Positions 16,089-37,644 of a stretch of DNA of 41,290 nt are shown piece after piece; position 1 is the first letter of the stretch, and every line of letters starts with the position of its first letter. Origin of the DNA: Euryarchaeota archaeon ADurb.BinA087 (lineage in GTDB: Archaea > Halobacteriota > Methanomicrobia > Methanomicrobiales > Methanospirillaceae); assembly GCA_002068435.1 (NCBI GenBank), contig MVZQ01000003.1, forward strand, positions 1 to 41,290. Reading direction: 5' to 3'. The notes beneath the pieces were generated by a model. The model was not told the origin of the DNA, ran no database searches, and worked only from the letters and a program-made list of their open reading frames with translations. The position numbers were made by a program, and so were the translations under genes.

Positions 16089-16552
16089 TGGATCCCTCCG
16101 CCGAGGGCATCCTTTTTGGCAGCAGGAGTGTTCATTTTGGTTCGTTTCTCCTCAAGAATACTGAGCGATTTGACAATTCCATCAATGATAGATTCAGGCC
16201 GGGCGGCACAGCCGGGGACATAGACATCGACAGGAATTATTTTGTCGATGCCTCCCGTGACATTGTAACATTCACGGAATACCCCGCCCGATGCTGCACA
16301 GATTCCCACCGCGACGACGACTTTGGGATCCGGCATCTGCTCATAGATATTTTTTACGACTTCTCTGTTCTGCTCGTTGATGCTCCCGGTAACCACGAAA
16401 ATGTCGGCATGCTTGGGATTGCCGGTGTTCACGATACCGAACCGCTCGACGTCATACATCGGGGTGAGGCAGGCAAGGACTTCGATATCGCAGCCATTGC
16501 AGCTTGATGCGTCGTAGTGAATGATCCAGGGGGAACGTTTCAGATAGGTCAT
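16085..16552 (-). CDS. echC: Ech hydrogenase small subunit (NuoB-like)
   Basis: Small subunit with the proximal [4Fe-4S] cluster that passes electrons to the NiFe site. The ligands are C18 and C21 (SSCNGC), C85 (GICAASGG) and C115 (VPGCAARPE), as in NuoB. The start was placed at ATG 16552 (MTYLKRSPWIIHYDASSC), giving an ATGA overlap with echB and a 155-residue protein; the longer frame to 16648 would add 32 residues with no family resemblance that lie inside echB. All six ech genes are on one transcript by spacing. Confidence 0.9.
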   Translation of the reverse strand: MTYLKRSPWIIHYDASSCNGCDIEVLACLTPMYDVERFGIVNTGNPKHADIFVVTGSINEQNREVVKNIYEQMPDPKVVVAVGICAASGGVFRECYNVTGGIDKIIPVDVYVPGCAARPESIIDGIVKSLSILEEKRTKMNTPAAKKDALGGGIQ

Positions 16553-17415
16553 GCCTGGAGCCCTCCAGAAAGGTAGTAAAGGACTGCGAGATTGATGAGC
16601 CCCAGCATACCGGCAATGATCCACGCACTTCTCAGGGTAAACTGCCATTTCACCCGACTGAAGGTGTTGTCAATCAGGATCTCCAACAGGTATGCGACAG
16701 CTATGGCAAGCAGGGCGATCGGAATACTGAACGCGAAGAACAGGAAGATAAACCCGAGCAAAAATACATATTCATACCAGTGGGCTATCTCAATTTTTCC
16801 GAGATTTGGACCGGTGAACTCGGTCGTCACTCCTTTGACAATCTCCTGGTGAGCATGATGGGAGGTGGAGAGATCGAAGGGAGATTTTCGAAGTTTGATC
16901 GTCAGGACCATCAAAAATCCGATAAAGACACCAGGCAGGTAGAGGACAATCGGGATGGAAGAGACTACAATATCACTCACAAAAAAGCTTGCCGTCACCA
17001 TATACATCCCAACAGCCGAAAGGATGATCATTGGTTCATAGGCTATGATCTGGATCAGTTCACGCTCGGCTCCGATGAAACTGTAGGGGGAACTAGAAGC
17101 ATAGGCCCCCAGTACCAGGAAAATATGGGACAGGGTGAAGGCAAATATGACAAGGAGCAGATCCCCACCTGCAAAGAACAGCGCTCCCGCAACGAGCATA
17201 AAGACGAGGTAACAGAGCGCATACAGATCCTGGCTCCTCGTGACAACGAGGTTCTCCTTCTCAAAAAGTTTCCCAACATCATAAAACGGCTGAAGCAGCG
17301 GGGGTCCTACCCGCCCCTGCATGCGTGCGGTGATCTTCCTGTCAATACCTGCCACTAACCCCCCGGCAATGGGAGCGAGCAGGATATATATCAGGCCATA
17401 AACAGGAGACATCAT
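16549..17415 (-). CDS. echB: Ech hydrogenase membrane subunit B (NuoH-like)
   Basis: 288-residue membrane protein with about eight helices. NuoH-family segments are visible: GRVGPPLLQPFYDVGKLFEKE near 34-55, the charged ERELIQIIAYEP loop at about 117-128, and SPFDLSTSHHAHQEIVKG at about 177-194, the region that contacts the hydrophilic arm. These conserved acidic residues are thought to form part of the ion pathway. Starts in an ATGA overlap with the echA stop and overlaps echC at its end. Confidence 0.92.
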   Translation of the reverse strand: MMSPVYGLIYILLAPIAGGLVAGIDRKITARMQGRVGPPLLQPFYDVGKLFEKENLVVTRSQDLYALCYLVFMLVAGALFFAGGDLLLVIFAFTLSHIFLVLGAYASSSPYSFIGAERELIQIIAYEPMIILSAVGMYMVTASFFVSDIVVSSIPIVLYLPGVFIGFLMVLTIKLRKSPFDLSTSHHAHQEIVKGVTTEFTGPNLGKIEIAHWYEYVFLLGFIFLFFAFSIPIALLAIAVAYLLEILIDNTFSRVKWQFTLRSAWIIAGMLGLINLAVLYYLSGGLQA

Positions 17416-20674: not shown

Positions 20675-21322
20675 TCAGGCCGCTTTCACGACTTTCTTTT
20701 TCCGTTCGATAATCTTCTTCACTTTTTTAAGCCTGTATAAATCCTCCCGATCCCGCTCATCAATGGTGATCTCAATATATTTTGCCTGTCGTTTCAGCTC
20801 CGGGATGAGGACTTGTTCAAGCGCATTCACCCTTCGCCGGGTCATCTGGATCTCACTCCCAAGTCTCCGGAGTGAGGTCTCAGTTTCAGCAAGGGTTATG
20901 ATGAGATCCAGCTCTGCCTCGAATTTCTCTGCAGCTTCGTCAATCCGACCACTCACTCCAAGAATACTGTAACCGCGATCCAGGAGACTTTTTACAAATC
21001 GTTTCTTCTCGATGATAGGGACAGGAACCCCCATCACATTTTTTCCCTTGATGTCAAGAGTGATCCCCCGCCTGGTAGCAAACGAGGCAGATTTAAGGGT
21101 TACGGGATCGTCGATTGCCTGAGCAATGAGCAGGGAGTGCTGGGCAGCATCTGAGATCTTTTCCAGCTCGACCCGTGACTCGGATACAGATTCCATGACA
21201 TTGAAAAATTCCTGTATGAGTGCATCCATCTTCTCTCGAAGAAGATCACGGCCCTGCTCTGCCAGTTTGATCTGGGCATTCTTCTTTATGAGCTCCATCC
21301 GGGTGGGATTAATCTGTTCCAT
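20675..21322 (-). CDS. atpD: A1Ao ATP synthase subunit D
   Basis: Central-stalk subunit that rotates inside the A3B3 head. 215 residues; N- and C-terminal long helices form the coiled-coil (MELIKKNAQIKLAEQGRDLLREKMDALIQEF at the start, RRRVNALEQVLIPELKRQAKYIEITIDERDREDLYRLKKVK near the end), a family hallmark. Last gene of the operon, two bases after atpB, with AAAGGGA as ribosome site. Family length is about 200-215. Confidence 0.92.
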   Translation of the reverse strand: MEQINPTRMELIKKNAQIKLAEQGRDLLREKMDALIQEFFNVMESVSESRVELEKISDAAQHSLLIAQAIDDPVTLKSASFATRRGITLDIKGKNVMGVPVPIIEKKRFVKSLLDRGYSILGVSGRIDEAAEKFEAELDLIITLAETETSLRRLGSEIQMTRRRVNALEQVLIPELKRQAKYIEITIDERDREDLYRLKKVKKIIERKKKVVKAA

Positions 21323-21324
21323 GT

Positions 21325-22722
21325 CTATCCCTTTTTAGAGGCTGGATGATATTTCTGGATGAATTCACGTTTGATGCGTTTCAATTCCTCTTCAGGGAGA
21401 AGAGTAAACAGCTGCCATCCGATCTCAAGGGTTCGTTCGATACTCCGGTTCTCATCGCCCTGGGTAATGAACTGGCGCTCGAATTCATCGGCAAATTTCA
21501 GGTATCTTTTGTCAAGGTCGGTAAGTGCCTCTTCTCCGACAATTGCGACCAGGCGCCTCAGATCCCTCCCATAAGCATAGGAGGCATAGAGCTGGTCAGC
21601 TACGTTCCGATGGTCCTCCCGGGTTTTTCCCGGTCCGATTCCGAGGTTCATAAGACGTGAAAGGCACGGTAGGGTGTCGACCGGGGGATCAGCGCCCCTG
21701 CGGAACAGGTCACGCGAGAGAACGATCTGTCCTTCGGTGATGTATCCGGTAAGATCTGGTACGGGATGCGTGATATCATCATCAGGCATGGTGAGAATCG
21801 GGATTTGAGTGATGGATCCTTTTTTGCCCTTCACCCTTCCGGCACGTTCGTAGATGGATGCAAGATCGGTATACATGTAACCAGGATATCCTCTCCGGCC
21901 TGGCACCTCCTCCCGCGCTGTCGAGATTTCGCGCAATGCTTCACAATAATTGATCATGTCGGTCAAAATAACAAGGACATGAAGATCATGCTCATAAGCC
22001 AGGAATTCTGCAGCGGTGAGTGCACACCGAGGAGTCGCAATCCTCTCGATGGTCGGGTCATCGGCAAGGTTCATGAAAAATACAACCCTTTCAAGTGCCC
22101 CGGTCTTCTCAAAATCCCTCATGAAGAATGAAGCTTCCTTGTAGGTAATTCCCATTGCAACGAATATCACTGCAAACTTCTCTTCCTCCCCAAGAACCTT
22201 TGCCTGTCTTGCGATCTGGGCAGCAAGCTTGTTTGCAGGGAGACCTGCGCCAGAGAAGATAGGCAGTTTCTGGCCTCGGACAAGGGTATTCAGACCATCA
22301 ATGGTTGACATCCCGGTCTGGATGAAATCAGCAGGCTTGTCGCGGGCTGACGGATTGATAGGCATTCCATTGATGTCGAGGTTTGCCTCTTCAATGATCT
22401 CGGGTCCTCCGTCACGCGGTTTTCCCACACCATTGAATATCCTCCCAAGCATCTCTATGGATACCTTGACTTTCGGAGGCTCCCCAGTAAAGCGGACTCG
22501 TGTATCTTTGTTATCGATCCCGCTCGTGCCTTCATATACTTGGGTTACTGCGATATCTTTCGAAATATCCAGCACCTGCCCGGTTCGTTCTTCTCCGGTG
22601 GGAAGGATGATCCGCACAATTTCACCATATGAGACACCTTTGACGTTCTGGATAAATATCAACGGGCCTGAAACATAGCTGATTGCTCTGGCCTCTTTGG
22701 TAAAGAGTGGGACTCTGTTCAT
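21325..22722 (-). CDS. atpB: A1Ao ATP synthase subunit B (non-catalytic)
   Basis: 465-residue regulatory nucleotide-binding subunit alternating with A in the head. Conserved parts: [20 protein letters not shown] (degenerate P-loop of B subunits, about 153-172), [14 protein letters not shown] before it, [32 protein letters not shown] (about 265-296) and [15 protein letters not shown]. Length matches the family. Starts in an ATGA overlap with atpA. Confidence 0.95.
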
Positions 22723-24458
22723 CGCTCTGCCTCCAGCTTACCAATAGCTCCGTCAAACTGGGTGATCAGATCCTTGATTTTGTCGATATCGGTGAGCTCC
22801 TTCATCCGTCCGATCTCGGTTTTCACGGGAAGTTTAAGGAGTTTGGCAAGGGGGACACCTTTCCCCATCGCGAGGTCCAGCCGGTCATAGAAGGAGAGAA
22901 TCACCCGGAGCATCCAGTATTGTTTTTCGAGAGAGCAGAAGGAATCGACTTCGTGATAAGCACTCTGCTGGAGGAAGTCTTCGCGAATCATACGGGTAAT
23001 CTCAAGAATTGCCTTTTCACTTTCGGGGAGGGCATCCGGACCGACAAGTTGCACAATCTCCTGCAGTTCAACCTCTTTCTGGAGAAGGTACATTGCACGT
23101 GCTCTGAGATCTTTCCAGTCAGAAAAACCGCTTGTCGCAAACCATTCCTTTATCTGGTCCAGATAGAGGGAATAGCTTTTAATCCAGTTCACAGAGGGGA
23201 AGTGCCTGCGGTATGCAAGGTTCGTATCGAGAGCCCAGAAGGTTCCTGCGATACGCAGGGTGTTCTGGGTGATCGGCTCCGAGAAATCTCCCCCCGGAGG
23301 TGAGACTGCACCAACCACTGTAACCGATCCCTTTCGCTCATCCGAACCGAGGCAGACCACGCGTCCTGCCCTCTCGTAGAATGCTGCAAGACGTGTTGCC
23401 AGGTATGCTGGATATCCTTCTTCACCCGGCATCTCTTCGAGCCGGCCCGAAACCTCACGCAATGCCTCGCCCCACCGTGAAGTAGAGTCGGCCATAAGTG
23501 CGACATCGTACCCCATGTCACGGTAGTATTCGGCAAGGGTAATCCCGGTATAGATGGAGGCTTCACGTGCAGCAACCGGCATATTGGAGGTGTTAGCGAT
23601 CAGAATTGTCCGCTGTATCAGGGGGCGTTTTGTTCTCGGATCGAGGAGCTCCGGGAATTCAGTGAGTACATCGGTCATCTCGTTGCCCCGCTCTCCGCAT
23701 CCGATATAAACAACAATCTGGGTATCGGACCATTTGGCAAGCGTTTGCTCTGCAACAGTTTTTCCAGTGCCGAATCCGCCAGGAATCATCGCTGTCCCAC
23801 CCTTTGTTACAGGGAAAAGTGTGTCAAATACCCTCTGACCGGTAACAAGTAGCGTATCAGGATCCATCTTCCTCTGGTAGGGTCTCCCCTTTCGCACCGG
23901 CCAGGTCTGGAGCATCGGTATCTGAACACTGTTATCGAGAGTACAGACTGGTTCATCAATTGTGAAATTGCCACTGAAAATATCTTCAACGGTAGCGGAC
24001 ACAAAGGGCGGTATCATGATCCGGTGTTCGAGATGGTATTCTGTAACTGTTCCAATAACGTCACCTCCGGATACATGGTCACCCTTCTTCACCTGTGGTT
24101 TAAACTCCCACTTCGTTTCGTGAGAGAGTCCTGGCAGGGTTACACCCCTCGAGATAAAACTTCCGCTCTTCTCTGCAAGAAGGGGGAGTGGTCGTTGAAT
24201 ACCGTCATAGATAGAGGAGAGAAGACCCGGTCCAAGCTCGACCGAGAGTGGCAGCCCGGTATTGGTGACCTTCTCGCCTACCTGCAAGCCGGATGTATCT
24301 TCGTAAACCTGGATGACAGCCTGATCACCATCAAGCCGTATGATCTCGCCATTCAGTTTTTGCTCCCCAACCTTCACTATATCATACATCCGGGATCCCC
24401 GCATCCCTTCAGAGAGGACAACAGGACCCGAAATTCTGGATATACCACCAATAATCAT
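22719..24458 (-). CDS. atpA: A1Ao ATP synthase subunit A (catalytic)
   Basis: 579-residue catalytic subunit with the archaeal non-homologous insert at about 115-190. The nucleotide site reads [11 protein letters not shown] at 225-235, so the usual GPFGSGKT loop is changed at two positions (P to G at 228, S to T at 231). The remaining catalytic features are normal: GCGERGNEM (253-261, catalytic Glu), [24 protein letters not shown] (321-329) and [12 protein letters not shown]. Ribosome site AGGAAGTGA precedes the ATG. The subunit should be active; the loop change may tune nucleotide binding. Confidence 0.95.
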
Positions 24459-24462
24459 ACAG

Positions 24463-24783
24463 TCACTTCCTCAGCACGATATTGTACCCGATTGCTCTTC
24501 TCAGCAGCCCCTCGATGTAACTGGTCCGGTCGAGTCTCCTTGCTCTGGAAGGGATTGGGATGATGATGGGCCGGTAGGATTTCTCGATCTTCTCCATCAT
24601 CTTCTCGTCCAGTGACATCATGTAATCCTCATTGATCGCTATAATCCCTGTATCGTCTTTCAGGAGGAGAGAAGGGAGCAACGCACGAACCTCCTCGGAA
24701 TTCTGGATCTCCATCACATCGATGCCGGCAAGCCGGAATCCGGGAGCAGTGTCAGGATCGGTTACCACAATGAACTTATACAC
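24463..24783 (-). CDS. atpF: A1Ao ATP synthase subunit F
   Basis: Small central-stalk subunit, 106 residues from GTG at 24783 ([23 protein letters not shown]). It shows the Rossmann-like F-subunit fold, with [13 protein letters not shown] in the middle and [16 protein letters not shown] at the end. The start was chosen because the longer frame to 24900 would add 39 residues that lie inside atpC and look unlike the family. GTG overlaps the atpC stop by eight bases. Confidence 0.9.
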
Positions 24784-25828
24784 TGATGAGCGCCTCCCTG
24801 AGCTCTTTTTCTGGTACCTCTGTGACCTTACAGCGGGCAATAACTCTGATATTCGTAACCTCGGTAAATTTTGCCCAGATATAGGCAATCGGTATGGCAA
24901 TGGAGAGAGGATCTCCCATGAATTGACCTACTGCCTTTTTTACAAGATATCGTTCCAGTTCTTTTTCAAAGGCAGATATCTTCTCTGCGGCAATGTATTC
25001 AGGAGGGATCTTTGCGATGAACTGGTAGGGGGTATGCTCGAGCTGTTTCAGCACACCTTCGATTGTCCCCGCTTTCATCATAGAAAGAAGTTTTTCGGTA
25101 TCAAAGTCGGGGCTCCCCTGCACGAAATACCTTTTCACCTCCTCAGTATCGATCCTATCACGTACCGAACGGAGCACAGTTTTTATGTTGTTGATATCAA
25201 TCTCGGTGACAAGGATATTCTTGAGAATCCTCGCGTCATCGGATTCAGCGGTTTTCAGCTTTGCCAGCGCGTCCTGATAGTAAAAGGTGTCGAGTGCGTA
25301 TTCCAGTACCTGCATGTCCCCTGAGTCAGTGAATTCCTTGAAATGTTGGGTAAGGGGGCGTGCATATACAATACCCCAGGTTGCGAGCAGATCGATTACT
25401 GCCTTGACATCGACTTGCTTCACCAGCTCGGTGAGGGCAGCCTCGTCAAGTTCTCCTGCAGGGATCAGGCATTCGAGGATCTCAGCGGGATTTTCTTGTA
25501 TTTTCTTTCCCCTGATGATGGTCTTGATATTTTGGACATCCCAGCGGTTGAGGATGATGGTGAGATAGGTCTCCGTCTCACCTCCCTTGATAAGCGTCAG
25601 GATAGTCCTGAACGTTTTAACAAGGTCTTTTCGTATCGCGACTTCAATGCGATTGATTCCGGAATACAACACCCCTGCCTTTTCCAGTTCCTCCCTGTAC
25701 GCAGTTTTTTCAAGCTCGGATATCAGAGAATCGACATCAGGTTTGTTAATCAGTTGTTCAAGGAGCGAAGGATCAAGCAGGCGGCTCTTCATGGCCTTAA
25801 TCCGTGCATTGACGTACGCATACTCCAT
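24776..25828 (-). CDS. atpC: A1Ao ATP synthase subunit C
   Basis: 350-residue socket subunit linking the central stalk to the proteolipid ring. Start placed at ATG 25828 (MEYAYVNARIKAMKSRLL), two bases after the atpE stop with GGTGAG as ribosome site; the frame to 25900 would add 24 residues not typical of the family. The protein is all-helical with the repeated vATP-synt_AC39 pattern (ETYLTIILNRWDVQNIKTIIRG and ARILKNILVTEIDINNIKTVLRS). Confidence 0.92.
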   Translation of the reverse strand: MEYAYVNARIKAMKSRLLDPSLLEQLINKPDVDSLISELEKTAYREELEKAGVLYSGINRIEVAIRKDLVKTFRTILTLIKGGETETYLTIILNRWDVQNIKTIIRGKKIQENPAEILECLIPAGELDEAALTELVKQVDVKAVIDLLATWGIVYARPLTQHFKEFTDSGDMQVLEYALDTFYYQDALAKLKTAESDDARILKNILVTEIDINNIKTVLRSVRDRIDTEEVKRYFVQGSPDFDTEKLLSMMKAGTIEGVLKQLEHTPYQFIAKIPPEYIAAEKISAFEKELERYLVKKAVGQFMGDPLSIAIPIAYIWAKFTEVTNIRVIARCKVTEVPEKELREALISV

Positions 25829-25829
25829 A

Positions 25830-26414
25830 TCACTCACCGAATAAGACGGAGAAAATCTCGGGTCGATAGATCTCCTTCGCTTTTTTAAGCCGGGATTCAA
25901 GAGTATTGAATATCACAAAGCGTCCATCACGGCTGTAAGCATTCAACCCTCCGGCAGAGGTCAGATCGGTAATAATATCGCCGGAGACTTTCATCTCGTT
26001 CAGGATATCCTTGAAGAGAGCCTCATCCCTTTTATCGATATGGAAAATAACGCCATCAGTCCCGAGATCATCGATGGCTTCATTGAGCAGAGATTTCAGG
26101 ATCTCTTTGTATCTCGGATGTTCGCGAGACGATTCCAGATTCCGGACGGCTTCATCAAAGACTCTCTCAAAAATCTCATTTTTGGCTTTTATAAACTCCA
26201 TGCGGCTCTTTTCCCGAACTTCTGAGAGGATCTTATTTCTCTGAATCGCTACCGATTGGGTTGCCTCTTCCAGGAGCCGTTTTTTGATTGGCTGGTCCTT
26301 TGCCTGTGCATCTTTGATAATTTCATCTGCCTCGGCCTTTGAGCGTTCCTGAATCTCCAGAATTCGTTCCTGACCACTCACTTCAACAGCCTTGATCAGA
26401 TCGTCAATTGCCAT
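25830..26414 (-). CDS. atpE: A1Ao ATP synthase subunit E (peripheral stalk)
   Basis: 194-residue peripheral-stalk subunit from ATG at 26414 (MAIDDLIKAVEVSGQERILEI), with AGGTG five bases before it. An ATG at 26459 would add 15 residues in the intergenic gap. The N-terminal half is a long Glu/Lys/Ala coiled-coil (ERSKAEADEIIKDAQAK...), and the C-terminal half is the globular domain that binds the head (GLNAYSRDGRFVIFNTLESRLKKAKE). Pairs with subunit H. Confidence 0.92.
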   Translation of the reverse strand: MAIDDLIKAVEVSGQERILEIQERSKAEADEIIKDAQAKDQPIKKRLLEEATQSVAIQRNKILSEVREKSRMEFIKAKNEIFERVFDEAVRNLESSREHPRYKEILKSLLNEAIDDLGTDGVIFHIDKRDEALFKDILNEMKVSGDIITDLTSAGGLNAYSRDGRFVIFNTLESRLKKAKEIYRPEIFSVLFGE

Positions 26415-26484
26415 ATTACACCTGTTCTTTCCGACGTTCCAGTGGAATTTCTTCGCCAAATTATTCCCGGATTATGTCGCAGGT

Positions 26485-26703
26485 TCACACCAGCATGATC
26501 ATGATCATGGATGCAACGACAAAACCAAGAATAACGAGAGTCTCGGGAATTGCCACCAGAATAATCATCAGTCCGAACATTTCCGGTTTTTCTGCAATCG
26601 TTCCCGCTCCCGCTGCGCCAATTCTTGACTGTGCAATCCCGGTACCGAGCGCTCCAAGCCCGAATGCGATGCCTGCCCCAATGGGGATTCCGAAATCAAC
26701 CAT
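26485..26703 (-). CDS. atpK: A1Ao ATP synthase proteolipid (subunit K/c), single hairpin
   Basis: 72-residue proteolipid forming a two-helix hairpin; several copies make the rotor ring. Helix 1 (about 5-32) is Gly/Ala-rich and contains Q25; the polar loop is AEKPEM; helix 2 (43-71) has the ion-binding glutamate E54 in AIPETLVI. Glutamine in helix 1 with E-T in helix 2 is seen in Na+-binding and mixed-specificity rings, so ion choice is open. Ribosome site GGAGG. Preceded by an unusually long 206-base gap with RNA structure. Confidence 0.93.
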   Translation of the reverse strand: MVDFGIPIGAGIAFGLGALGTGIAQSRIGAAGAGTIAEKPEMFGLMIILVAIPETLVILGFVVASMIMIMLV

Positions 26704-26909
26704 TCACATCAGCCTCCATCCAAAGCGCCGCCCCTGCACAGGCGGCACATCGTTTTTCCTCATAACCATACATTACCTTCAACCTCACTCAATGTTGAAG
26801 GGCGTTGAGAACACCTCTCAAAATACTTCAATTACATTGACAACTCCTCTCCTCTCCTCTCCTCTCTTCTCGATAAATGATACCGTTAGCTTGCGGACAT
26901 CTTTTTGCT
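26704..26909 (-). promoter_or_regulatory. Structured atpI-atpK intergenic region
   Basis: In the direction of transcription this stretch holds, in order: four tandem AGGAG units (26863-26844); TTGTCA; ATG-TAA (a start directly followed by a stop, 26838-26833); an 8-base perfect stem CCTTCAAC/GTTGAAGG (26776-26801, 10-base loop); a GC-rich stem GCCGCC/GGCGGC (26727-26746, 8-base loop); and the atpK ribosome site GGAGG. Other gene borders in the operon are 70 bases or less. A role in processing or stabilising the atpK message, so that many proteolipid copies are made, is inferred. No clear TATA box was found. Confidence 0.5.
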
Positions 26910-28862
26910 TCAAACAGATTTCCCCCCCTCCTCCTTTTTGAAGGGTTTATAGAGCTTGCCCCCGCCCTCGTAAAACTTCGAGTCAAACTCGACAAGGTGC
27001 AGACGGAGTGAGTGAAGGAACGGACTGAACATGGCAAGGACGAGATTGAGCGTATGAAGAAGTACCGCGATGATTACCCCGACGATGGCAACCTCCATCA
27101 TGCCTCCAAGTTTGTTAGCAACCACCGCGAGGATGACCGATGCCATACCGATTGCCATGATACGGGAGTAGGAGAGGATGTTTGTTACCGTACTCATGAT
27201 CTCAAACGTTCCAAAAGCACCACCACCGATAATTATGAGGGGGATGGCGATGATGATGAGGACCGCTCCCGTTGTAATTAAAGCTGTGGGCAGCGTCATT
27301 GCCACGCCGGCAATCACCAATATGAGACCGGTTATTACGATCATCATACCCGTTTTTTCACAGATATGTTTCTTTGCCTTGTCTACGTGTCTTTTACAAC
27401 TTAACTCGGTATAGGAGTTCACTATTCCCAGAATCAGCCCGAGGAATACATGGAAGACACCTATTGCAATTGAAAGGATCAGGAAGGGGACTATCGCTTC
27501 CATCCGGTTCCAAGTGACACCAAAGAATGTCTTTGGCTCGATCCATCCCATATGTTCGCCTAAATCGCCGAAAAATTCCCCATATAACCATCCAAAGAAG
27601 ATCGCCCATAGTGCACCCATTATCAGGACGTTCATTAAGTGCTGAAGCCACTCGCGATCGGCGAATTTCCACTTCATTATGATGGCAAAAGCAAGTATTA
27701 TCAGCCCGTATCCGATGTCCCCGACCATAATTCCAAAGAATAGCGGAAGAAAAATCGCCATGATGGGACTCGGGTCAAATTCAGTGGATTTGGCAGGACT
27801 GACAACCCGCATGAGGAATTCGAACGGTTTGACAAAACTGGGGTTATCATAAAATGTCGGGGCCTCTGCCATCTCATTTGGGGTAAGAACAAGTTCATGA
27901 ACAATTACCCTCCCCTCAAATGTGTCCTTGAGGGCATCCTTCGTCTCTTTGAGGGATTTCTTTGGTATCCATCCTGCTAGTACAAAGGTATATTCGGTTT
28001 GGCCGATCTTCGAAAAGATACTCAGTTCTTCGGTTCTCTCACCAAGGATCCGATGTAATGCGCTGAGCTCTGTGTACGAAGTTGACGAAATTTTTTCCAG
28101 TTCAGCATTCAGCCGGGAAATTTCCTGAGTGGAAGATATTTTTCTCTCTTCGATGAGGTTAAAAATCTCATTGAAAGGTTTTCCCAGATACTCCGGGGGT
28201 AGCCGGACCTCATTCACATTCTGATTGAAGAAATAAGAGTGGACCTGTTCCGAATACCTTTTATTGAATATAGTGACCGCGGCGATGGTGGTTTCATCCA
28301 GTTCAGCGGACATCAATTCAAACTGCCGTTTTGTAATCTCGGCAAGGGCATTCCGGATGATATCGATGACGTCCTTGAACTCCTTCTGGATAAGAAGAAC
28401 TGTGACTTCAAAACCCTCCAGTTTGGGCATGCTGGTCTCAAGGGGCCGGATTTTGTCGATAATTTTCTCGTAACGACCGAGGTTGATGAGGGCAAGCTCG
28501 AGATCGCTCTTCTCTTTTGCGAGAGTTTTTGTGGCTGTTTCGAGCTCGCTGATGACGGTACTAGCACGAGCGAGAAGATTTTCATGGCTTATCGCTTTCA
28601 GACTTGAATAGAAAGACGCTACTGTCTTCTCATCCGTCTTGATCTTGGGAAGAGTAAGCAGAATGCCCCCGATCTTTGAATGCGCAACCGCGATATCTCC
28701 AACCTGTTCTGCTGTCATTTTTTTCAGAGTGATTTCCCCCGGGGTAACCGGTACAGACGCATCCTCGATATGCACAGTCCCCTTGGCGTACAGTACATCC
28801 AGCACATTAGGAAGGTCTTTTTTGGGACCCAGTACCTGTATCTTCACCATTTTCTGGAGCAT
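26910..28862 (-). CDS. atpI: A1Ao ATP synthase subunit I (a-subunit)
   Basis: 650-residue membrane stator subunit with a cytoplasmic N-terminal half (about 1-350, helical with coiled-coil) and a C-terminal membrane half of seven to eight helices. The conserved ion-channel arginine is in SLRLHLVEFDSKFYEGGG near the end, and GIMVGDIGYG lies at the start of the membrane part. Six bases after atpH. An internal ATG four codons in (MVKIQVLGPKK) could be the real start. The protein ends at a Gly/Lys-rich tail. Confidence 0.93.
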   Translation of the reverse strand: MLQKMVKIQVLGPKKDLPNVLDVLYAKGTVHIEDASVPVTPGEITLKKMTAEQVGDIAVAHSKIGGILLTLPKIKTDEKTVASFYSSLKAISHENLLARASTVISELETATKTLAKEKSDLELALINLGRYEKIIDKIRPLETSMPKLEGFEVTVLLIQKEFKDVIDIIRNALAEITKRQFELMSAELDETTIAAVTIFNKRYSEQVHSYFFNQNVNEVRLPPEYLGKPFNEIFNLIEERKISSTQEISRLNAELEKISSTSYTELSALHRILGERTEELSIFSKIGQTEYTFVLAGWIPKKSLKETKDALKDTFEGRVIVHELVLTPNEMAEAPTFYDNPSFVKPFEFLMRVVSPAKSTEFDPSPIMAIFLPLFFGIMVGDIGYGLIILAFAIIMKWKFADREWLQHLMNVLIMGALWAIFFGWLYGEFFGDLGEHMGWIEPKTFFGVTWNRMEAIVPFLILSIAIGVFHVFLGLILGIVNSYTELSCKRHVDKAKKHICEKTGMMIVITGLILVIAGVAMTLPTALITTGAVLIIIAIPLIIIGGGAFGTFEIMSTVTNILSYSRIMAIGMASVILAVVANKLGGMMEVAIVGVIIAVLLHTLNLVLAMFSPFLHSLRLHLVEFDSKFYEGGGKLYKPFKKEEGGKSV

Positions 28863-28868
28863 TGCATT

Positions 28869-29189
28869 CTACCCTGAAAGGATTATTGAAGCGATTCTCT
28901 CAACCGCTCTCGGTAAATTCTTCTTTCCTCGTTGCCGGACCGATTCAACCTCTTCCCTGGCCTTGGTCCTGATCTGATCTGCTTCTGCCTGAACCCGTAT
29001 CATCTCGTTCTCCAGGAATTCATCAGCTGCCTTCTTCCCCTCCTTTTCTGATGAGGTAACTATCTCGAGGGAATCTTTCCTGGCCTGGTCGATCATACGA
29101 TCAGCTCCCACCCGAGCATCGTCGATCTTAACGCTTACCTCCAGTTCCTTTTCCCGGATTTTCGCTAATAGGGACTTTTCAACAGGCAT
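28869..29189 (-). CDS. atpH: A1Ao ATP synthase subunit H (peripheral stalk)
   Basis: 106-residue helical coiled-coil subunit pairing with E in the peripheral stalk. Almost the whole chain is charged heptads (MIDQARKDSLEIVTSSEKEG, QIRTKAREEVESVRQRG). First of the nine recognised genes H-I-K-E-C-F-A-B-D. The ATG follows GAGGAATAAGT; that stretch also contains the TAA of an overlapping ten-codon frame starting GTG at 29224, a possible coupling peptide. Confidence 0.9.
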   Translation of the reverse strand: MPVEKSLLAKIREKELEVSVKIDDARVGADRMIDQARKDSLEIVTSSEKEGKKAADEFLENEMIRVQAEADQIRTKAREEVESVRQRGKKNLPRAVERIASIILSG

Positions 29190-29617: not shown

Positions 29618-30541
29618 ATGTTCCACAAACTATTATTTGCAACTGATTTTTCTGAATACGCGAAGAAGACCCTCGATTGTATCGCAGGATTTCCCGGTGT
29701 CGCTGAGGTCATAGTGCTCCATGTCCTTGAAGAAGCGAGGAATCCAAGGGGGGGAGGGGAAATTAATGAAACACTTACCCCGGATGAGAGAAATCTCCTC
29801 AAGGAAGAGAAGCACCGTCTCGAATCCCTGAATAAAAGGCTCAAGGTAACAACCCGGGTGAAAACATCATCTGATGTTCCCGGCGCAATCATCGAAACTG
29901 CCGAAGAGAACGGGGTAACCCTGATCGTTGTTGGTGCCCGGGGTAACAGTATCGTGGAAGGTATCCTTCTTGGCAGTGTATCGGTTGCGATCGTCCGGAG
30001 GAGTAAGATCACCGTCCTTGTCATGCGCCATAAGATAATGGATGGTCTGCAACAAACGGCATATGATATGTGGTGTCCGATGATCTTTTCACGGATTCTC
30101 TGCCCGATCGATTTCTCAGTCTGCTCCGATCGTGCAATAACTCTTCTTAAAACGACGAACGGGGTTGGACAGGTCATTCTCTTTCATGTAGTCTCCCATG
30201 GTGAGTCTGAAACTGAACTGGAGACCTCTGTTGAGGAAGCAAGCAGAAAGCTCGCAGAGATTGGGAAAGACCTCTCCAGGGCGGGTGTGAACGTCCGTAT
30301 ACTTGTGAAGAGAGGGAATCCTGGATCGGAAATAACAAGGATTGCGGATGAGGAGGGGGTCTCAGTCATCTGGATCAGTTCACTCGGAAAAGGGTGGTTC
30401 AGGGAACTTCTTCTGGGAAGTACCGCCTATGATGTGGCCATGAATGCCAGGCAGCCGGTTATCATCGTCCGTACAACGAAATCAAAAAGGGAGAATCAGG
30501 CACTCCCGGAGAACAACCAGTATCGGTATGATGTTGCCTGA
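29618..30541 (+). CDS. Tandem-domain universal stress protein
   Basis: 307 residues made of two UspA domains (about 1-138 and 160-292). Each begins with the beta1 motif (KLLFATDFSEYAKK and RILCPIDFSVCSDR). The ATP-binding loop is visible in domain 1 as VVGARGNSIVEGILLGSVS and in degenerate form in domain 2 as WISSLGKGWFRELLLGSTA. Such proteins bind ATP or other nucleotides and act under starvation or energy stress. It lies alone on the plus strand between the two rotary ATPase operons, divergent from the A1Ao operon and convergent with the V-type one, so co-regulation with energy supply is plausible. Soluble, cytoplasmic. Confidence 0.9.
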   Translation: MFHKLLFATDFSEYAKKTLDCIAGFPGVAEVIVLHVLEEARNPRGGGEINETLTPDERNLLKEEKHRLESLNKRLKVTTRVKTSSDVPGAIIETAEENGVTLIVVGARGNSIVEGILLGSVSVAIVRRSKITVLVMRHKIMDGLQQTAYDMWCPMIFSRILCPIDFSVCSDRAITLLKTTNGVGQVILFHVVSHGESETELETSVEEASRKLAEIGKDLSRAGVNVRILVKRGNPGSEITRIADEEGVSVIWISSLGKGWFRELLLGSTAYDVAMNARQPVIIVRTTKSKRENQALPENNQYRYDVA

Positions 30542-30627: not shown

Positions 30628-31065
30628 TCAAATCGCTGCCAGTCGGCCAAAGATACCAAGGGTGAATGCCATCACAAGCAAGGCAACCGTCTCTGCCAGA
30701 CCAAGGATGATCATGAGGTTGCCGAATCCTTTCCCTGTCTCTCCCATTGCGTCACATGCGCATGCTCCGCACTTACCCTGGAAATAGGCTGACAGGCCTA
30801 TAGCAGCTCCGCAGAATGCTCCGATACCCCACAAGTCATTCCCCTGTATCGCAAGATCGACCATCGAATTCATAACGATAAATCCATAAATCGTCTGCGT
30901 GAGCGGTGCGGCAGCAAAAGCAACTAACATAAACGCAGCGGGCTTATTCTGGATGTAATTCTTTTTCCAGGCGCCAATCGCGGCCATTCCCGCAGTACCT
31001 GATCCAGCGGCAGATCCCAGCGCTGACAAGCCGAGCACCAGGCCCAAACCCAGATCCATCGTCAT
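30628..31065 (-). CDS. V-type ATPase proteolipid, double hairpin (second rotary ATPase)
   Basis: 145-residue proteolipid with four helices in two hairpins, as in Enterococcus hirae NtpK. Start set at ATG 31065 (MTMDLGLGLVLG), preceded by AGGGAAGAT; the longer frame to 31110 lies inside the I gene. The Na+-ligand positions of NtpK can be matched: T56 and Q57 (APLTQTIYGF), Y60, Q96 (YFQGK) and E125 (GLAETVALL); L61 of NtpK is replaced by Ala. Only one carboxylate is present per four helices (hairpin 1 has Gln where the second would be). A CGACACD loop lies between helices 3 and 4. The match argues for Na+ as coupling ion. Last gene of the V-type cluster. Confidence 0.92.
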   Translation of the reverse strand: MTMDLGLGLVLGLSALGSAAGSGTAGMAAIGAWKKNYIQNKPAAFMLVAFAAAPLTQTIYGFIVMNSMVDLAIQGNDLWGIGAFCGAAIGLSAYFQGKCGACACDAMGETGKGFGNLMIILGLAETVALLVMAFTLGIFGRLAAI

Positions 31066-31078
31066 GATATCTTCCCTG

Positions 31079-32845
31079 TCATTCTTTGAGCGGTTCGAAT
31101 GAAGTTCCACTCCATGTTATGTTCGCATGCCCCGAAAATTCAAGCACATTGAGCCTGACACCGTGCACGAGGACTGACATCAGTCCCAGGATGAGGTTTA
31201 AGCTATGACCGGATAAAAGAATTACGGCACCTGCCAGAACTGCAATGACGCCACTCCCGAATCCGGATGCAAGATAATTTGTTGTATTGGCAACTGCCAG
31301 TGTCGCCATTCCCACCGCAAAAAGACGTATATATGAGATCACATCAGTGATGTTGTTCATAAAGCTCAATGCGATCGTTCCCATCCCTTCCCCAATACCA
31401 CGGAGAATATTTGATCTTTTGGGGTTGGTGAAGAGAATTACAAGGATCACTCCCGCAACGGCCAGCCATATCCCGAAATCCGGGAATGGATCTCCCAGAA
31501 TCAACGTGTTGGCCAGGAAAAACGCAGTCCAGAGAATGCTGATATAGCCAACGTCAGCGAGTGCTTTCAGCGATGGGAATTTCAGGAGTGCCCGCCAGCA
31601 ATGGGCAATTGACAGGTGCAATGCCCCAAGGAAGAAACAGAATTTTGTCACAAATGCAGCATCATTGAGTTGGGGAACGAGAGCGGGAAGTCCCCACTGC
31701 CCGAAAAAAGTACCGGTTAGGAGGCCCCAGGTAACGGCGCTTAAACCCAGGAGGTAGAAGAGCAGGACAGCCGTTCTCATCTCTTTATTCATCATCATCT
31801 TTCTCTTCAGCCAGAACGACAGGAGAACTGTCAAAACGATGTACGCTAGTCCATAACCAGCATCACCAATCAGGATCCCGAAGAATATGCTGAAGAAAAT
31901 GAGGAATACCATGCTGACATCCAGTTCATGATAGCCCGGGGTAAGTCCTAGTAGTCCCAGGATTGGATTTATCATTTCAACCCACCTTGGATTGCGAAGG
32001 AGTGTGGGCACATTGTCACCCTCGGACGGTTCGACGATGAGTATTCCCCATCCGTTTTTCCTTGCTTCTACTATCAGGGAATCTTCTAAGTCAGACGGGA
32101 CATATCCCGTGATATAGCTGAGTGCCCCATCCTTGCCCATTCCGGCCAGAACCTCTTGAAACTCTATCTCTTTCTCCAGTCTTTTTTTAATGTCCAGAAG
32201 GTCATCATAAAATCCGGCTGAATAAAGGATCCCGGATTTAATAATCTCCATACTCCTGGTATGTTCGGCAAGTCGCTCCTTAAGCCGGGACAAGCCCTGC
32301 TCCGGGGGGGTTACCTCCTTGAATCCGCATTCAAACTGCCGTCGCGAAATCGCCACCACATGGGCGATGTCCCCGGCAATATATATCGTCTTCACTACGA
32401 TATCGTCAGGGAAATTTCCCAGTTCTCTTACCGGTACCTGGTATAATTTCAGGTGAATGCCGTTCTGAGCCAATGAGCGGACCTCGGCGTGATTAATATC
32501 ACCCCATCGTTCCCATTCGTTCATCTTACCGATGATGTTCCTTATGGAGAGTTCCAGTTGTTCCTGCTTCCGGCCGGTTTCGATGATACTCCCGGCAACC
32601 TCCCTCCAGTCACCGGTTATTGGGCTTTGCGGCTGATTTTTTCTCTCGGATATGGGCAGCTGGTTCAGGACATCAACTGAGGAATTGATCAGGGCAACTT
32701 TTTCCAGGAGTGCCGAGATTTTACCCCCTTCAGGAATGTTCTGGTGTTCTACCTGCATAACCCCCAGTTTACGCACGGTAGCGACGGTCGCGTCCGCATC
32801 CCCTGTCTGGAAAATAATAGTGACTTTTTTCATCGGAACAATCAT
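31079..32845 (-). CDS. V-type ATPase subunit I (second rotary ATPase)
   Basis: 588-residue membrane stator subunit: cytoplasmic N-terminal half to about residue 300, then seven to eight helices beginning FFGILIGDAGYG. The conserved arginine is in HGVRLNVLEFSGHANITWSG near the C-terminus. This ending (LEFSGH..ITWSG..FEPL) differs from the archaeal copy (VEFDSKFYEGGG) and resembles what I recall of spirochaete-type I subunits. Starts in an ATGA overlap with the D gene; an internal ATG at 32833 (MKKVTIIF) is an alternative. Confidence 0.9.
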   Translation of the reverse strand: MIVPMKKVTIIFQTGDADATVATVRKLGVMQVEHQNIPEGGKISALLEKVALINSSVDVLNQLPISERKNQPQSPITGDWREVAGSIIETGRKQEQLELSIRNIIGKMNEWERWGDINHAEVRSLAQNGIHLKLYQVPVRELGNFPDDIVVKTIYIAGDIAHVVAISRRQFECGFKEVTPPEQGLSRLKERLAEHTRSMEIIKSGILYSAGFYDDLLDIKKRLEKEIEFQEVLAGMGKDGALSYITGYVPSDLEDSLIVEARKNGWGILIVEPSEGDNVPTLLRNPRWVEMINPILGLLGLTPGYHELDVSMVFLIFFSIFFGILIGDAGYGLAYIVLTVLLSFWLKRKMMMNKEMRTAVLLFYLLGLSAVTWGLLTGTFFGQWGLPALVPQLNDAAFVTKFCFFLGALHLSIAHCWRALLKFPSLKALADVGYISILWTAFFLANTLILGDPFPDFGIWLAVAGVILVILFTNPKRSNILRGIGEGMGTIALSFMNNITDVISYIRLFAVGMATLAVANTTNYLASGFGSGVIAVLAGAVILLSGHSLNLILGLMSVLVHGVRLNVLEFSGHANITWSGTSFEPLKE

Positions 32846-33453
32846 AGGGCTATCTCCTCAAAGCCCGATTGTTCGATCTTATTTTTAGCAATTTTACTCC
32901 GGCCAACCGCATTGGTCATCTGATCGCCGATGTATATCTTGATGAGGCGTATTGCTTCCTTTGCCTCGGGTATCTTTACCTTCTCGAACAGGTTGACACG
33001 TTGGGTTGTGATTCGCAGTTCATGGTTCAGGACAGATATTCCTCGCTTGATTACCTGTATCTCTTCCTGCAGAGAGGTGAGTTCTTTCAGGGCATCCAAT
33101 CCTGCATCCAGCCAGAGAGGCATCAGGAACAAGTCATACTCAGCCGGTTCAAAATAAACATTTTCAAAGATGGGTATATCGACCCCGGCAATATTCCTCT
33201 TGCCAGTGACTATTCTTTCGGGCTTCAACCACATTCTTATTCCAGGGGCCTCATGAAGGAGCGCTGACCATTCCTCTGCCGATCGTATCTTTTCAGACAG
33301 TGTTTTTTCCCTCCCCCGGAGAGTACTCTGCTGTTGAAGAATTTCGAGCTGGATCTGCTGCTTTTTGAGCTGCAGGGTGGGCAGGTACCTCTCATACTGC
33401 CGCAGTGCATCCCTCTGTTTTTTCAGTTCACCCTGGGTAAATTTTATTTTCAT
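32842..33453 (-). CDS. V-type ATPase subunit D (second rotary ATPase)
   Basis: 203-residue central-stalk subunit, mostly two long helices ([30 protein letters not shown] at the start and [33 protein letters not shown] at the end). The start at ATG 33453 ([13 protein letters not shown]) makes an ATGA overlap with the B gene; a TTG 15 bases earlier is less likely. It is only loosely similar to the atpD product in this window, which shows the two clusters are not a recent duplication. Confidence 0.9.
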
Positions 33454-34748
33454 AGTTTTTTCGGCCAATATTGATCGATTATGGATCTCTTAATCCCTGT
33501 CTCTTCTGGCAAGAAGCAATCATGCAGAATCTCCCAGCCGAGGTCGAGCGCTTTCTCGAGGGGGATATTCACCTTAAGGGACATCATTTTTTCCTCGAAG
33601 AGTTGTCCATATTTGAGAAGCTTCATATCCCAGGCACTCATCTGGAATCCCATTGACTGTTTTTCCTGTGTTTCACGGTAATCGGCAAAGAGTTGGATCA
33701 TGGTATCCATGATCGTCCGGTGGTCATCCCTTGTTTTGGCATTCACGAGCTGCTTCAACCGGCTCAATGATCCGAATGGCTCGATAGCACCATTCTTGAG
33801 ATAAAACTGTCCTTCCGTGATATACCCGGTGTTGTCCGGAATCGGATGGGTAACATCATCTCCCGGCATTGTGGTCACCGCGAGAATCGTGATCGAGCCC
33901 GCGGTCTCGAAATCCACCGCCTTCTCATACCGGGATGCAAGGAGACTGTACAGGTCCCCGGGATATCCGCGGTTTGAAGGAATCTGCTGCATTGTGATGG
34001 CAATCTCCTTTAATGCATCGCAGAAATTGCTCATGTCCGTCAGAAGTACAAGGACCCTTTTTCCTTCAAGAGCAAAATTTTCTGCAACGGCAAGGCTGAT
34101 ATCGGGGACCAGCAGACACTCAACAACGGGATCGGCTGCAGTATGCATAAACACGATTGAATGGGAGAGTGCACCATGCTCTTCAAGAGTGTCACGGAAG
34201 AAGAGATAATCGTCGTATTTCAATCCCATTCCCCCAAGAATAATGATGTCAACCTCCGCCTGGGTCCCGATTCGTGCGAGAAGCTCATTGTAAGGCTCCC
34301 CGGCGATGGAAAATATCGGGAGTTTCTGGGATTCCACGAGTGAATTGAACACATCGATCATGGGTATGCCGGTCCGAATCATCTTGTTTGGAATGATCCG
34401 TTTCACGGGATTGACCGGCGGCCCGCCGATATCGACAAGGTTCTCGGAAAGATCAGGACCATTATCGAGGGGGCGACCGCTTCCGTTAAACACCCGGCCA
34501 AGGAGCAAATCACCGGTAGCAATACGCATCGGATGCCCCAGAAACCTTACCCGGTCTCCTGTTGAAATTCCTCTGCTGCCTGCAAAGACCTGTAAGAATG
34601 CTTTGTTCCCGTCAAGGCGAATAACCTGGGCAAGGGACGTTCCCCGCCGGGTTGTCACCTCGGCAAGCTCCGTATTGCCAACATCTTCTGCATCCACGGC
34701 AATAACATCGCCGACAATCTGGTTTATGCTTGTATAGATCTTATGCAT
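33450..34748 (-). CDS. V-type ATPase subunit B (second rotary ATPase)
   Basis: 432 residues from ATG at 34748 ([18 protein letters not shown]), eight bases inside the end of the A gene and preceded by GGGAGGGGAAGC; the frame to 34817 would overlap A by far more. Non-catalytic head subunit: [18 protein letters not shown] replaces the P-loop, with [25 protein letters not shown] and [16 protein letters not shown] further on. Shorter than the archaeal copy (465) and lacking its C-terminal extension. Confidence 0.92.
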
Positions 34749-36486
34749 GCTTCCCCTCCCTTGTGCGAACGAGGAGAAATGCCCTGATCTCTTGCTCGGT
34801 CTTTTTAAATTCATCACTCTGCCAGGAGATTGAGTTCCATCCCCGGAAGAGCTGTCTCAACTGCTGGAAAAAATGGAGTGCTTCATCTTTACGTTCAAAA
34901 ACAAATTCTGATTCAATAATGCGGTGAATAAAGTCAAATATATAGATCTGCCGTTCTTTCACGGTGGCTTCATCAACCGGATCAAAGGCATTCTGCTGGA
35001 GATAGACAAAATCGAAGAATTCGGCTTTGAGAAAATCCATGTAATCCTGGAGTGATGTTCCTTCTTCACCGACAACTTTCATCATCTGGGCGATATCGTT
35101 GCCTTTGAGCAGGATCCCCTGCCCCCTCTCTCTCTGTCCCTCTTCGATGATACTTCTGTATTTGCTCCAGCTGATGAGTGGATCTATGGCCGGATACCGT
35201 CTGGCATCGGAACGACTGCGGGAGAGGCCAAGGAAAGCACCAACTACTTTTAATGTTGCCTGGGTCACCGGTTCTTCGAAGTTACCCCCCGCAGGGCTGA
35301 CAGCCCCCCCAATTGTCACCGAGCCTAAAGAGCCGTCGTGTAAACGAACCAGTCCTGCCCTCTCATAGAACGAGGCGATTCGCGACTCCAGATATGCAGG
35401 GAACGCCTCCTCTCCAGGGATCTCTTCCAGTCTCCCTGACATCTCACGCATGGCCTGGGCCCATCGGGAAGTTGAATCTGCAAGCAGAAGCACGTGGAGT
35501 CCCATCTGGCGATAGTATTCAGCGATGGTGACCGCCGTATAAACGCTCGATTCCCTCGCTGCAACCGGCATTGAGCTCGTATTACAGATAATGACCGTGC
35601 GATCGCTCAAAGGACGGCTGGTCCTTGGATCGATAATAGAAGGAAACGTCCGTAATGTCTCAACAATCTCACCCGCCCGTTCACCGCAGGCGGCGATAAT
35701 CACGATATCTACCTCGGCGTGACGGCTGATCAACTGCTGTAAGACAGTTTTTCCGGCGCCGAAAGGACCCGGGATACAGTACGTCCCTCCCCTGGAAACC
35801 GGGAAGAGGGAATCAATCAGGCGCATCTTGGTAACCAGGGGTTCCTCAGGCTTCAGTCGCTCAGTGTAAGCTTGGATCGGGATCTTCACAGGCCATGTCT
35901 GGCTCAAAAACACAGGGTATATTTTTCCGTTCTGGTCCATTATCTGGGCGACCGCCTGGCGTATCGTGAACCTGCCGGCATTCTCAATCGATATAATCTC
36001 ATAGTTTCCCGTCAATGTGAAAGGGACCATGCAGAAGTGGCGGAAAATTTTCTCCTCAACATATCCAATTTTATCTCCCGCTCTTACGCTGTCACCGGGT
36101 TTTTTTTCAGGAGTAAAATCCCAGGTCTTCGATTCGGAAAGTGCCTTTATATAAACCCCTCTCTGAAGAAAAAAACCGCATTGCTCCGCAATCTCCGGTA
36201 GAGGATTCTGGAGGCCATCGTAGATTTGGCCAAGCATTCCCGGGCCGAGCTCGATCGACAGGAGTTCCCCGGTAAACTCAACCTCCTCCCCGATCTTTAA
36301 ACCTGTGGTCGCCTCATAGACCTGCATCTCAGCCAGATTACCACGTATGCGGATCACTTCAGATTTGAGACGCTCCTGTCCGTGCCGGATATAGGCTACC
36401 TCGTTTTGCATGACGGGAGTATCAAACGTGACGGTAACCATGTTACCATTTATTCGCACGATTCGACCCGATGACAACGCTGTCAT
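34741..36486 (-). CDS. V-type ATPase subunit A, catalytic (second rotary ATPase)
   Basis: 581-residue catalytic subunit. The P-loop is canonical apart from A at 244 ([14 protein letters not shown], 238-251), in contrast to the altered loop in the other A subunit. Other motifs: [13 protein letters not shown] (catalytic Glu), [41 protein letters not shown]. The non-homologous insert (about 115-200) is present. GGAGGCGGTGTGA precedes the ATG. Confidence 0.94.
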
Positions 36487-37026
36487 TCACACCGCCTCCT
36501 GCTCCAGTGCTTCGCGTAACAGAAGGGATGCATCGGCACTTCGTATCCTCTCCCAACGATGGAGAATCAACAGTTTATAGGCATAGGTTATCAGAGCGTC
36601 CAGATCAAAATAGTGGGCAATTGCGAGTTCATCCAGCATTTTCCAGCGTGTCTCGTCCAATACCTTTTCACCATCAAGCAATGAAGGGCTCATGGTGGCT
36701 GCTGAGACGACTGGCGCGAGAGACGGTCCAGTATAGGTATCAGGACGGAGATAGGGTGCAGCCTCGATATGGCGCCTGCCCGCCCGCATCCTGGCCGTCT
36801 CGTTCCGGAGGGTAGTATCGAACTTGATCCATCGTTCAACGAACCTATGCTTCCTGCCTTCTTCTGAGTAATTTTCAGGCCGTGGCAGGTTACGTAAGAT
36901 CTGAAAGTCTTTTTCCGGGATGAGCCGGTGGCATGTTTCAAGGAACTGTTCAAATGAAAATGGTGGTTTCATTCCAAAATGCAGCGTTGGCAGGCTTGCG
37001 ATAAGGTACGGGTAAAACTCTCCCAT
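36487..37026 (-). CDS. DUF2764 protein of bacterial-type V-ATPase clusters
   Basis: 179 residues beginning MGEFYPYLIASLPTLHFGMKP, the signature start of DUF2764 (YYyLvaSLP.l.fg.kPp). No membrane helix, no catalytic motif; rich in aromatic and basic residues and predicted mostly helical. From memory, spirochaete and chlamydial V-ATPase operons carry such a gene in the same place, between E and A. Because those operons and this one lack a C-subunit gene, the protein is a candidate replacement for it. The gene is six bases after E and adjoins A directly. Confidence 0.75.
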   Translation of the reverse strand: MGEFYPYLIASLPTLHFGMKPPFSFEQFLETCHRLIPEKDFQILRNLPRPENYSEEGRKHRFVERWIKFDTTLRNETARMRAGRRHIEAAPYLRPDTYTGPSLAPVVSAATMSPSLLDGEKVLDETRWKMLDELAIAHYFDLDALITYAYKLLILHRWERIRSADASLLLREALEQEAV

Positions 37027-37032: not shown

Positions 37033-37644
37033 TCATTCCTCTATTGATCCCTCGAGAATCCTTTTTAATTTGGGTTTGAGGTAGGATATGATGTATCCCG
37101 CGAGTGCTTTATCGGTGAAATCATAGCAGGATTTTCCACTGTCGAAGCTGATAGTAAACCCGCCCTGGATCTCTTCACCGGGCTGCAAGGTTATTCCCCT
37201 TGCTGCCTCAAGCTGTAGTTTCTGGAGATACTGTTGTTCCAGGAGATCCAAATCGTTCTTTTTGAGTGAAATGATAATGTTGCCTCGCTCCATTTTGGGA
37301 TAATTCCTGATTATCTCGGATAAAAGCCGGGAGAGTAACTCCGGAGTGAGAGCCTCGCGGATGTCAGAGACCACAATCCGCCCGAGCATGGCATTTATCT
37401 CCTGCCGGAGCGAGAGAAGAAGATCCCTCCCAGCCTGGGCAAGGAGGGCCCTCTCCCTCTTCTCTTCTAGCCTGATTCTTTGATCTGCTGCAGCGATTAT
37501 CCTGTCAGCTTCAGCCTGTGCCTGGGAGAGAATGGCATCTGCTCTCTGCCTTGCCTCAAACTCAATAATGTTAGCCTTCTCTTCGGCAGCCTTTATCCCC
37601 TCCTGATTAATCTTCTCGATCAGGTCCCTAATCTCTTCCGGCAT
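37033..37644 (-). CDS. V-type ATPase subunit E (second rotary ATPase)
   Basis: 203-residue peripheral-stalk subunit: N-terminal Glu/Ala/Arg coiled-coil (residues 5-90), C-terminal globular domain ending TDKALAGYIISYLKPKLKRILEG. No separate H or G partner gene is present in this cluster. First gene of the cluster. The ATG lacks a close ribosome site; a strong GGAGGT lies upstream at a 22-codon frame that overlaps the start. Confidence 0.88.
   Translation of the reverse strand: MPEEIRDLIEKINQEGIKAAEEKANIIEFEARQRADAILSQAQAEADRIIAAADQRIRLEEKRERALLAQAGRDLLLSLRQEINAMLGRIVVSDIREALTPELLSRLLSEIIRNYPKMERGNIIISLKKNDLDLLEQQYLQKLQLEAARGITLQPGEEIQGGFTISFDSGKSCYDFTDKALAGYIISYLKPKLKRILEGSIEE

Follow-up and report, generated by a model that had tools for sequence, protein, structure and literature searches.

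A bacterial-type V-ATPase with a predicted Na+-binding proteolipid alternates with a native A-type ATPase at one locus in Methanomicrobiales

The stretch of DNA analyzed here, referred to below as the window (41,290 nucleotides), carries on its reverse strand a seven-gene V-type ATPase operon in the order E-DUF2764-A-B-D-I-K, running from 37644 down to 30628 with E as the first and K as the last gene. The peripheral stalk subunit E (37033..37644; NF002424, 134 bits, below the cut-off of 241) is followed by a 179-residue DUF2764 protein (36487..37026), the conserved second gene of this operon type, and by the catalytic subunit A (34741..36486) with the P-loop GAGKT, which is intact in all complete relatives. 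Subunit B (33450..34748; NF002555, 736.7 bits versus a cut-off of 431) starts at ATG 34748 and not at GTG 34817, as judged by the start positions of relatives, and precedes the central stalk subunit D (32842..33453, likely start ATG 33453; PF01813, E 3e-35). The stator (a) subunit I (31079..32845, 588 residues) contains the arginine motifs SYIRL and VRLN, both kept in all aligned relatives bar I/V/L changes beside the Arg. The last gene encodes the proteolipid, subunit K (30628..31065, 145 residues), which matches PF00137 (E 7e-14) and NF005174 and has two hairpins and a single carboxylate, E125. Genes of the C, F, G or H type are absent from the operon (30628-37644), and the only C and F genes found in the 76%-complete genome are those of a neighbouring A1Ao operon. 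DUF2764 may stand in for the missing C/d or G/F subunits. Its AlphaFold model is all-helical (mean pLDDT 86) and found no match in a PDB fold search. The possibility that it is a shortened C/d subunit found no support, as hhalign of the family alignment against native subunit C gave a probability of 1% and PF01992 was matched by one of 43 members, at an E of only 0.14.

Downstream of K lies a universal stress protein gene (Usp; 29618..30541, forward strand; PF00582) that separates the V-ATPase from the nine-gene archaeal A1Ao operon H-I-K-E-C-F-A-B-D (20675..29189, reverse strand), followed by a six-gene Ech-like membrane hydrogenase (14243..19316, reverse strand) that is found near the ATPase pair in several genomes. 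Beyond it are a membrane protein (9970-12516) that combines a PEGA-like N-terminal region, long TTTIP/TTVP repeats and a Ser/Thr protein kinase domain at its C-terminus, and an adjoining FHA-like protein (12537-13319); these domain names were assigned by reading the sequence and not by search. At Rfam gathering scores, the window yielded neither a Na+ riboswitch nor any other Rfam element, and a scan of eight related loci returned tRNAs only, so a riboswitch upstream of the operon was discarded as independent support for Na+. In all six of the Omnitrophota loci scanned (L037, L043, L054, L056, L059, and L072), two tRNA genes directly follow V-ATPase K, at about 9430-9730.

The V-ATPase is of the seven-gene type found in spirochaetes and Bacteroides, as indicated by its scores, by an operon order without C, F or G, and by its placement in trees, where it groups with bacterial members and apart from archaeal A1Ao. 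K scores 169.4 bits with NF005174, the NCBIfam model 'V-type ATP synthase subunit K' (cut-off 127), and both this model and NF002555 are ones that we take, in part from the operon of Treponema sp. L085, to be spirochaete-type. The enzyme is not an archaeal A1Ao ATP synthase, given that its subunit A reaches only 549.6 bits with the archaeal A1Ao subunit A model TIGR01043 (cut-off 972; 925.7 bits for the neighbouring A1Ao A) and that C, F, and H genes are absent at 30628-37644. Nor is it an enterococcal Ntp enzyme, since K scores 25.1 bits with NF005124 (cut-off 127), presumably the Gram-positive-type subunit K model, and its seven genes stand in another order. Homologous operons were found in Methanoregulaceae MAGs and in many Omnitrophota, the latter at 64-76% K identity, with more distant copies in Auribacterota, Fibrobacter, Aminicenantes, and Treponema; the gene order is conserved in Omnitrophota and methanogens.

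In trees of subunit A and of concatenated A, B, D, I, and K, the archaeal copies are monophyletic (100/100) and branch beside or within Omnitrophota, their closest bacterial relatives; all outgroups of this clade are bacterial. Nesting of the archaeal clade inside Omnitrophota was favoured but not significant, as trees in which Omnitrophota were held together were not rejected (AU p 0.27 for A alone, 0.13 for the concatenation); strict nesting was thus set aside. DUF2764 occurred only in the window's family in a 393-genome sample of the archaeal phylum, by a search less sensitive than that with K, which adds two carriers in another family. With bacterial outgroups throughout and DUF2764 confined in this way, transfer from an Omnitrophota-like bacterium to methanogens is the simplest reading, and from the sequences a Methanomicrobiales lineage most likely acquired the V-ATPase once from such bacteria. 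Some Omnitrophota live as epibionts attached to methanogens (PMC10066038), and we infer that such contact may have offered a route for the transfer.

Most of the genomes compared are MAGs and that of the window is a fragmented one, which raises the question of whether a bacterial contig was misassigned to an archaeal bin, the more so because a near-identical contig (L031, JAKQLB010000387.1) is filed under Bacteroidota. We regard this as extremely improbable. Native A1Ao, Usp, and liv genes flank the operon in several independent MAGs, Usp and A1Ao also flank it in the single-contig genome G140, and the G+C content of the operon (0.499) equals that of its surroundings (0.489-0.509); on synteny and G+C, contamination was therefore rejected. 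Beyond the V operon, L031 runs on into archaeal A1Ao genes, which identifies it as the misfiled contig, and it was dismissed as a Bacteroidota carrier. Its sequence is 98% identical to the window over 5 kb of the V operon.

To read the ion site of the proteolipid, K was aligned with its reference, NtpK of E. hirae, whose sequence is letter-identical to that of PDB 2bl2. The original prediction had placed T56, Q57, Y60, Q96, and E125 of K (numbered from ATG 31065; T56 codon 30898-30900, E125 codon 30691-30693) where NtpK uses T64, Q65, Y68, Q110, and E139 to bind Na+. MAFFT confirmed each of these pairs and further paired A53 with L61, P54 with P62, and L55 with G63, while an hhalign profile alignment independent of MAFFT gave the same register (E 5e-5), and K has all four side-chain ligands (T64, Q65, Q110, and E139) together with Y68 at the aligned positions. 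The inner-helix Gln and the Glu are 29 residues apart in K and NtpK alike. Across an alignment of 90 rows, comprising NtpK and 89 loci, some of which represent the same gene from two collections, the equivalents of Y68 and Q110 are Y and Q in every row (90/90 each), that of E139 is E in 88/88, the other two rows being truncated, that of T64 is T or S in 90/90, and that of Q65 is Q in 89/90, with N in one Treponema. This conservation argues that the match of K to NtpK is not due to chance. The one change that had been singled out, L61 to Ala, is present as A53; however, it is the backbone carbonyl of L61 that coordinates Na+ in NtpK (PMC2359735, Fig. 2 legend), and the substitution is therefore neutral and removes no ligand. 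The claim of one carboxylate per double hairpin also held, as hairpin 1 has L55 at the corresponding position and E125 is the sole carboxylate. Conserved cysteines follow the inner Gln (QGKCGACACDAMGE, window 30733-30780) in methanogen and Omnitrophota K and are lacking from UBP3/Auribacterota copies.

Comparison of the genomic neighbourhood across relatives revealed that the position beside Usp and the A1Ao operon is held by one of two different ATPases. The V-type enzyme lies there in G000, G225, G227, G140, G183, G148, and G145, and in G221, G155, G149, G157, and G220 the same slot is taken by an alternative ATPase of archaeal type that has C and F genes of its own. In the window's genus the far side of the slot is marked by liv genes, and partial contigs agree with the alternative occupant in this place, G223 from the liv side and G231 from both liv and Usp. 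In G202 the A1Ao lies about 9 kb further off, and outside the family (G120, G106, and G089) the alternative ATPase has neither Usp nor A1Ao nearby. In G183, a lone extra single-hairpin c-subunit gene (QSRIG...PETMTILG; L127 8632-8775, forward) sits on the opposite strand between the A1Ao operon and Usp. Two or three genes for subunit C, indicating additional A1Ao copies, are present in several congeneric genomes, and a single methanogen of this group can carry three rotary ATPases (window 20675-29189; G225:C23, G227:C88, G221:C21, and G223:C32).

The alternative A-type ATPase with a multi-hairpin, Na+-motif K was identified in 57 of 232 Methanomicrobiales genomes and 22 of 40 genera (e.g. L119 4447-14143, L122, L126, and L160-L175). 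V-type K was found in 27 of the 232, and none of the 84 carriers has both, versus 6.6 co-occurrences expected (hypergeometric P 0.0003, relatedness ignored); within the family the corresponding counts are 25/108 for the V-type and 20/108 for the alternative (P 0.003, again ignoring relatedness). On a tree of subunit I of the neighbouring A1Ao, at least three changes of occupant are forced by the starred branches: G221 carries the alternative inside a V-type clade, and G222 and G224 carry the V-type inside an alternative clade. This conflict indicates that, at least in these three genomes, the occupant was exchanged while its neighbour stayed in place.

The alternative proteolipid is about 481 residues long and has six hairpins (three in G202). 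Among the copies in the window's family, hairpin 1 provides T, Q, and Y without a carboxylate (PQTQAIYG), hairpins 2-5 combine GQG with CETQAIYG, and hairpin 6 combines GQG with SETFAIFG; Q-E-T-Q-Y sites occur in every copy of this rotor that was read. On the pairing known from NtpK, with Q and E contributed by hairpin n+1 and T, Q, and Y by hairpin n, the alternative K would hold five complete NtpK-type sites per six hairpins, and the K of the window would represent a two-hairpin version of this layout.

H+ enzymes have Leu, Ile, or Val at the position equivalent to Q65, where predicted Na+ enzymes have polar residues (PMC2359735), a rule that is a sequence correlation. V-type K has Q57 here, and thus lacks the aliphatic residue of H+-type c subunits, and the alternative K has Q in all hairpins but the last. 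The single-hairpin K of the window's A1Ao reads Q, E, T, L, L, with an aliphatic Leu at the Q65 position; across relatives this residue is L in 26 and M in 2 of 28. A third A1Ao elsewhere has I in all four copies read, with Glu at the position of the inner Gln. The slot therefore carries a Na+ signature whichever occupant it holds, and the swapping at one locus of two unrelated ATPases that share this signature provides independent support for Na+. The reading of the K pocket as a Na+ site is accordingly supported by the alignment, by the invariance of the ligands, by the same Q-E-T-Q-Y set in the slot's native alternative, and by the absence of this set from the other two A1Ao proteolipids, and from sequence we predict that the V-ATPase is coupled to Na+. 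Methanogen A1Ao enzymes can be promiscuous for their ion, and that of M. acetivorans is reported to use both H+ and Na+; with the rule being correlative, H+ or mixed coupling is thus conceivable. The enzyme would then be an H+ or promiscuous H+/Na+ enzyme that keeps its ligands from a Na+ ancestor, with protons dominating in the low-salt freshwater where these methanogens live. Consistent with such a scenario, Na+ enzymes can move protons when Na+ is lacking, and part of the ligand set persists in some H+ enzymes (PMC2359735). Against it, the family as a whole retains every side-chain ligand, the discriminating Gln among them, and the ATPase that alternates with the V-type enzyme in the slot has independently the same set; we consider this scenario improbable.

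Taken together, our analysis makes it likely that, within a complete V-ATPase of the spirochaete/Bacteroides/Omnitrophota type encoded by seven genes, K is the rotor subunit that binds Na+, and that this enzyme was acquired from Omnitrophota-like bacteria; it occupies a locus that otherwise holds a native five-site A-type ATPase. The ligand set, the intact catalytic and stator motifs, the operon, the phylogeny, and the slot exchange can be read from the sequences, and from them we infer Na+ selectivity and rotary coupling. Each K would hold a single Na+ between its hairpins, hairpin 1 contributing T56, Q57, Y60, and the backbone carbonyl of A53 and hairpin 2 contributing Q96 and E125. Na+ would enter through a half-channel of the stator, bind in the pocket of K, be carried round with the rotor, and be discharged at the stator by the arginines of subunit I, with rotation coupled to ATP at A3B3.

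From the single carboxylate per double hairpin, the original prediction had derived a low ion-to-ATP ratio suited to pumping rather than to ATP synthesis. This part was not borne out, as the ratio depends on the size of the ring, which the sequence does not give. The NtpK ring has ten double hairpins, corresponding to a ratio of 10/3, with 3.2 ± 0.4 Na+ per ATP measured, and the E. hirae enzyme, EhVoV1, synthesizes ATP from a sodium motive force (PMC12018189). A dedicated pump whose low ratio prevents ATP synthesis would fit the single carboxylate of K, the lack of F-, G- or C-type subunits in the operon, the finding of no further F or C gene in the genome, which is incomplete, and the use of the enzyme as a pump by E. 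hirae. We nevertheless consider it unlikely, because EhVoV1 makes ATP with the same rotor design and because the alternative ATPase in the slot carries five carboxylates in a six-hairpin proteolipid, which shows that the slot does not track low carboxylate density. The pump role in E. hirae has been ascribed to thermodynamics and to a lack of hydrolysis inhibition (PMC12018189), and the V-ATPase is expected, by analogy with EhVoV1, to be reversible. Because the operon lacks F-type subunits and E. hirae uses its enzyme as a pump, we lean slightly towards ATP-driven Na+ export, with the direction set by thermodynamics and not by rotor stoichiometry; it is almost equally probable that the Na+ gradient of the methyltransferase Mtr drives ATP synthesis.

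Whether a rotary ATPase of a methanogen uses Na+ or H+ decides how the methyltransferase Na+ gradient becomes ATP. As the V-type enzyme sits where relatives keep a native ATPase with the same Na+-binding residues, our results suggest a spot in the genome reserved for a sodium-coupled ATPase. More tentatively, and with some doubt, we propose that the slot beside the A1Ao is dedicated to a Na+-coupled second ATPase, native A-type or V-type but never both, which has been swapped repeatedly and which, paired with the H+-signature A1Ao and often with Ech, interconverts Na+ and H+ gradients via ATP. The alternation of Na+-signature occupants at one locus, with H+-type residues in the other two ATPases, makes such a division of labour testable. 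The ligand observation is not new in kind, as an earlier study used the same alignment to predict Na+ specificity for the B. fragilis operon (PMC10197588). Our literature search found no report of a DUF2764-type V-ATPase in archaea or of its Omnitrophota kinship, nor of in-place alternation with a multi-hairpin, Na+-signature A-ATPase. These data extend to archaea a V-ATPase type whose DUF2764 protein has been called exclusively bacterial (PMC10197588) and document the apparent exchange of an entire energy-converting machine across domains.

Among known systems, the Na+-V-ATPase of E. hirae (NtpK, PDB 2bl2) shares with the window's enzyme a double-hairpin rotor subunit that has a single carboxylate and in which matching hairpins provide identical side-chain ligands for Na+. 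It differs in its host and gene content, as the archaeal operon has the seven genes E-DUF2764-A-B-D-I-K and no NtpG-, F-, C-, H- or J-type genes; K is predicted to work like NtpK but is not a member of the enterococcal family, belonging instead to the spirochaete/Bacteroides seven-gene type. The V-ATPase of Bacteroides fragilis is likewise encoded by a seven-gene operon with DUF2764 in second place and is accessory to another ATPase; its K was predicted to bind Na+ by alignment with NtpK, and the enzyme is a fitness factor in deoxycholate (PMC10197588). Unlike in B. fragilis, DUF2764 here occurs in methanogens, with Omnitrophota as the closest kin. The spirochaete-type enzymes resemble that of the window in K and B scores above the cut-offs and in the operon of Treponema sp. 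L085, although the Treponema copy read has S/N for T/Q and an Ala after the inner Gln, whereas the K of the window has the exact NtpK set. The alternative occupant shares its multi-hairpin design with the Na+-type Methanopyrus kandleri proteolipid, which has 13 hairpins (PMC2359735), and is itself built of Q-E-T-Q-Y per hairpin, with the first hairpin lacking the carboxylate and the last lacking Q and Y. Methanospirillum hungatei has three Aha clusters, two of them nearly adjacent to each other and near ech, which have been noted without assignment of an ion or role (PMC4704411); judged by cluster layout, its second and third clusters resemble the arrangement of the alternative slot, a nearly adjacent pair near ech. 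The alternative occupant comes from a different lineage of ATPases and has C, F, and H subunits of its own; in the window's lineage its place is taken by the bacterial-type enzyme.
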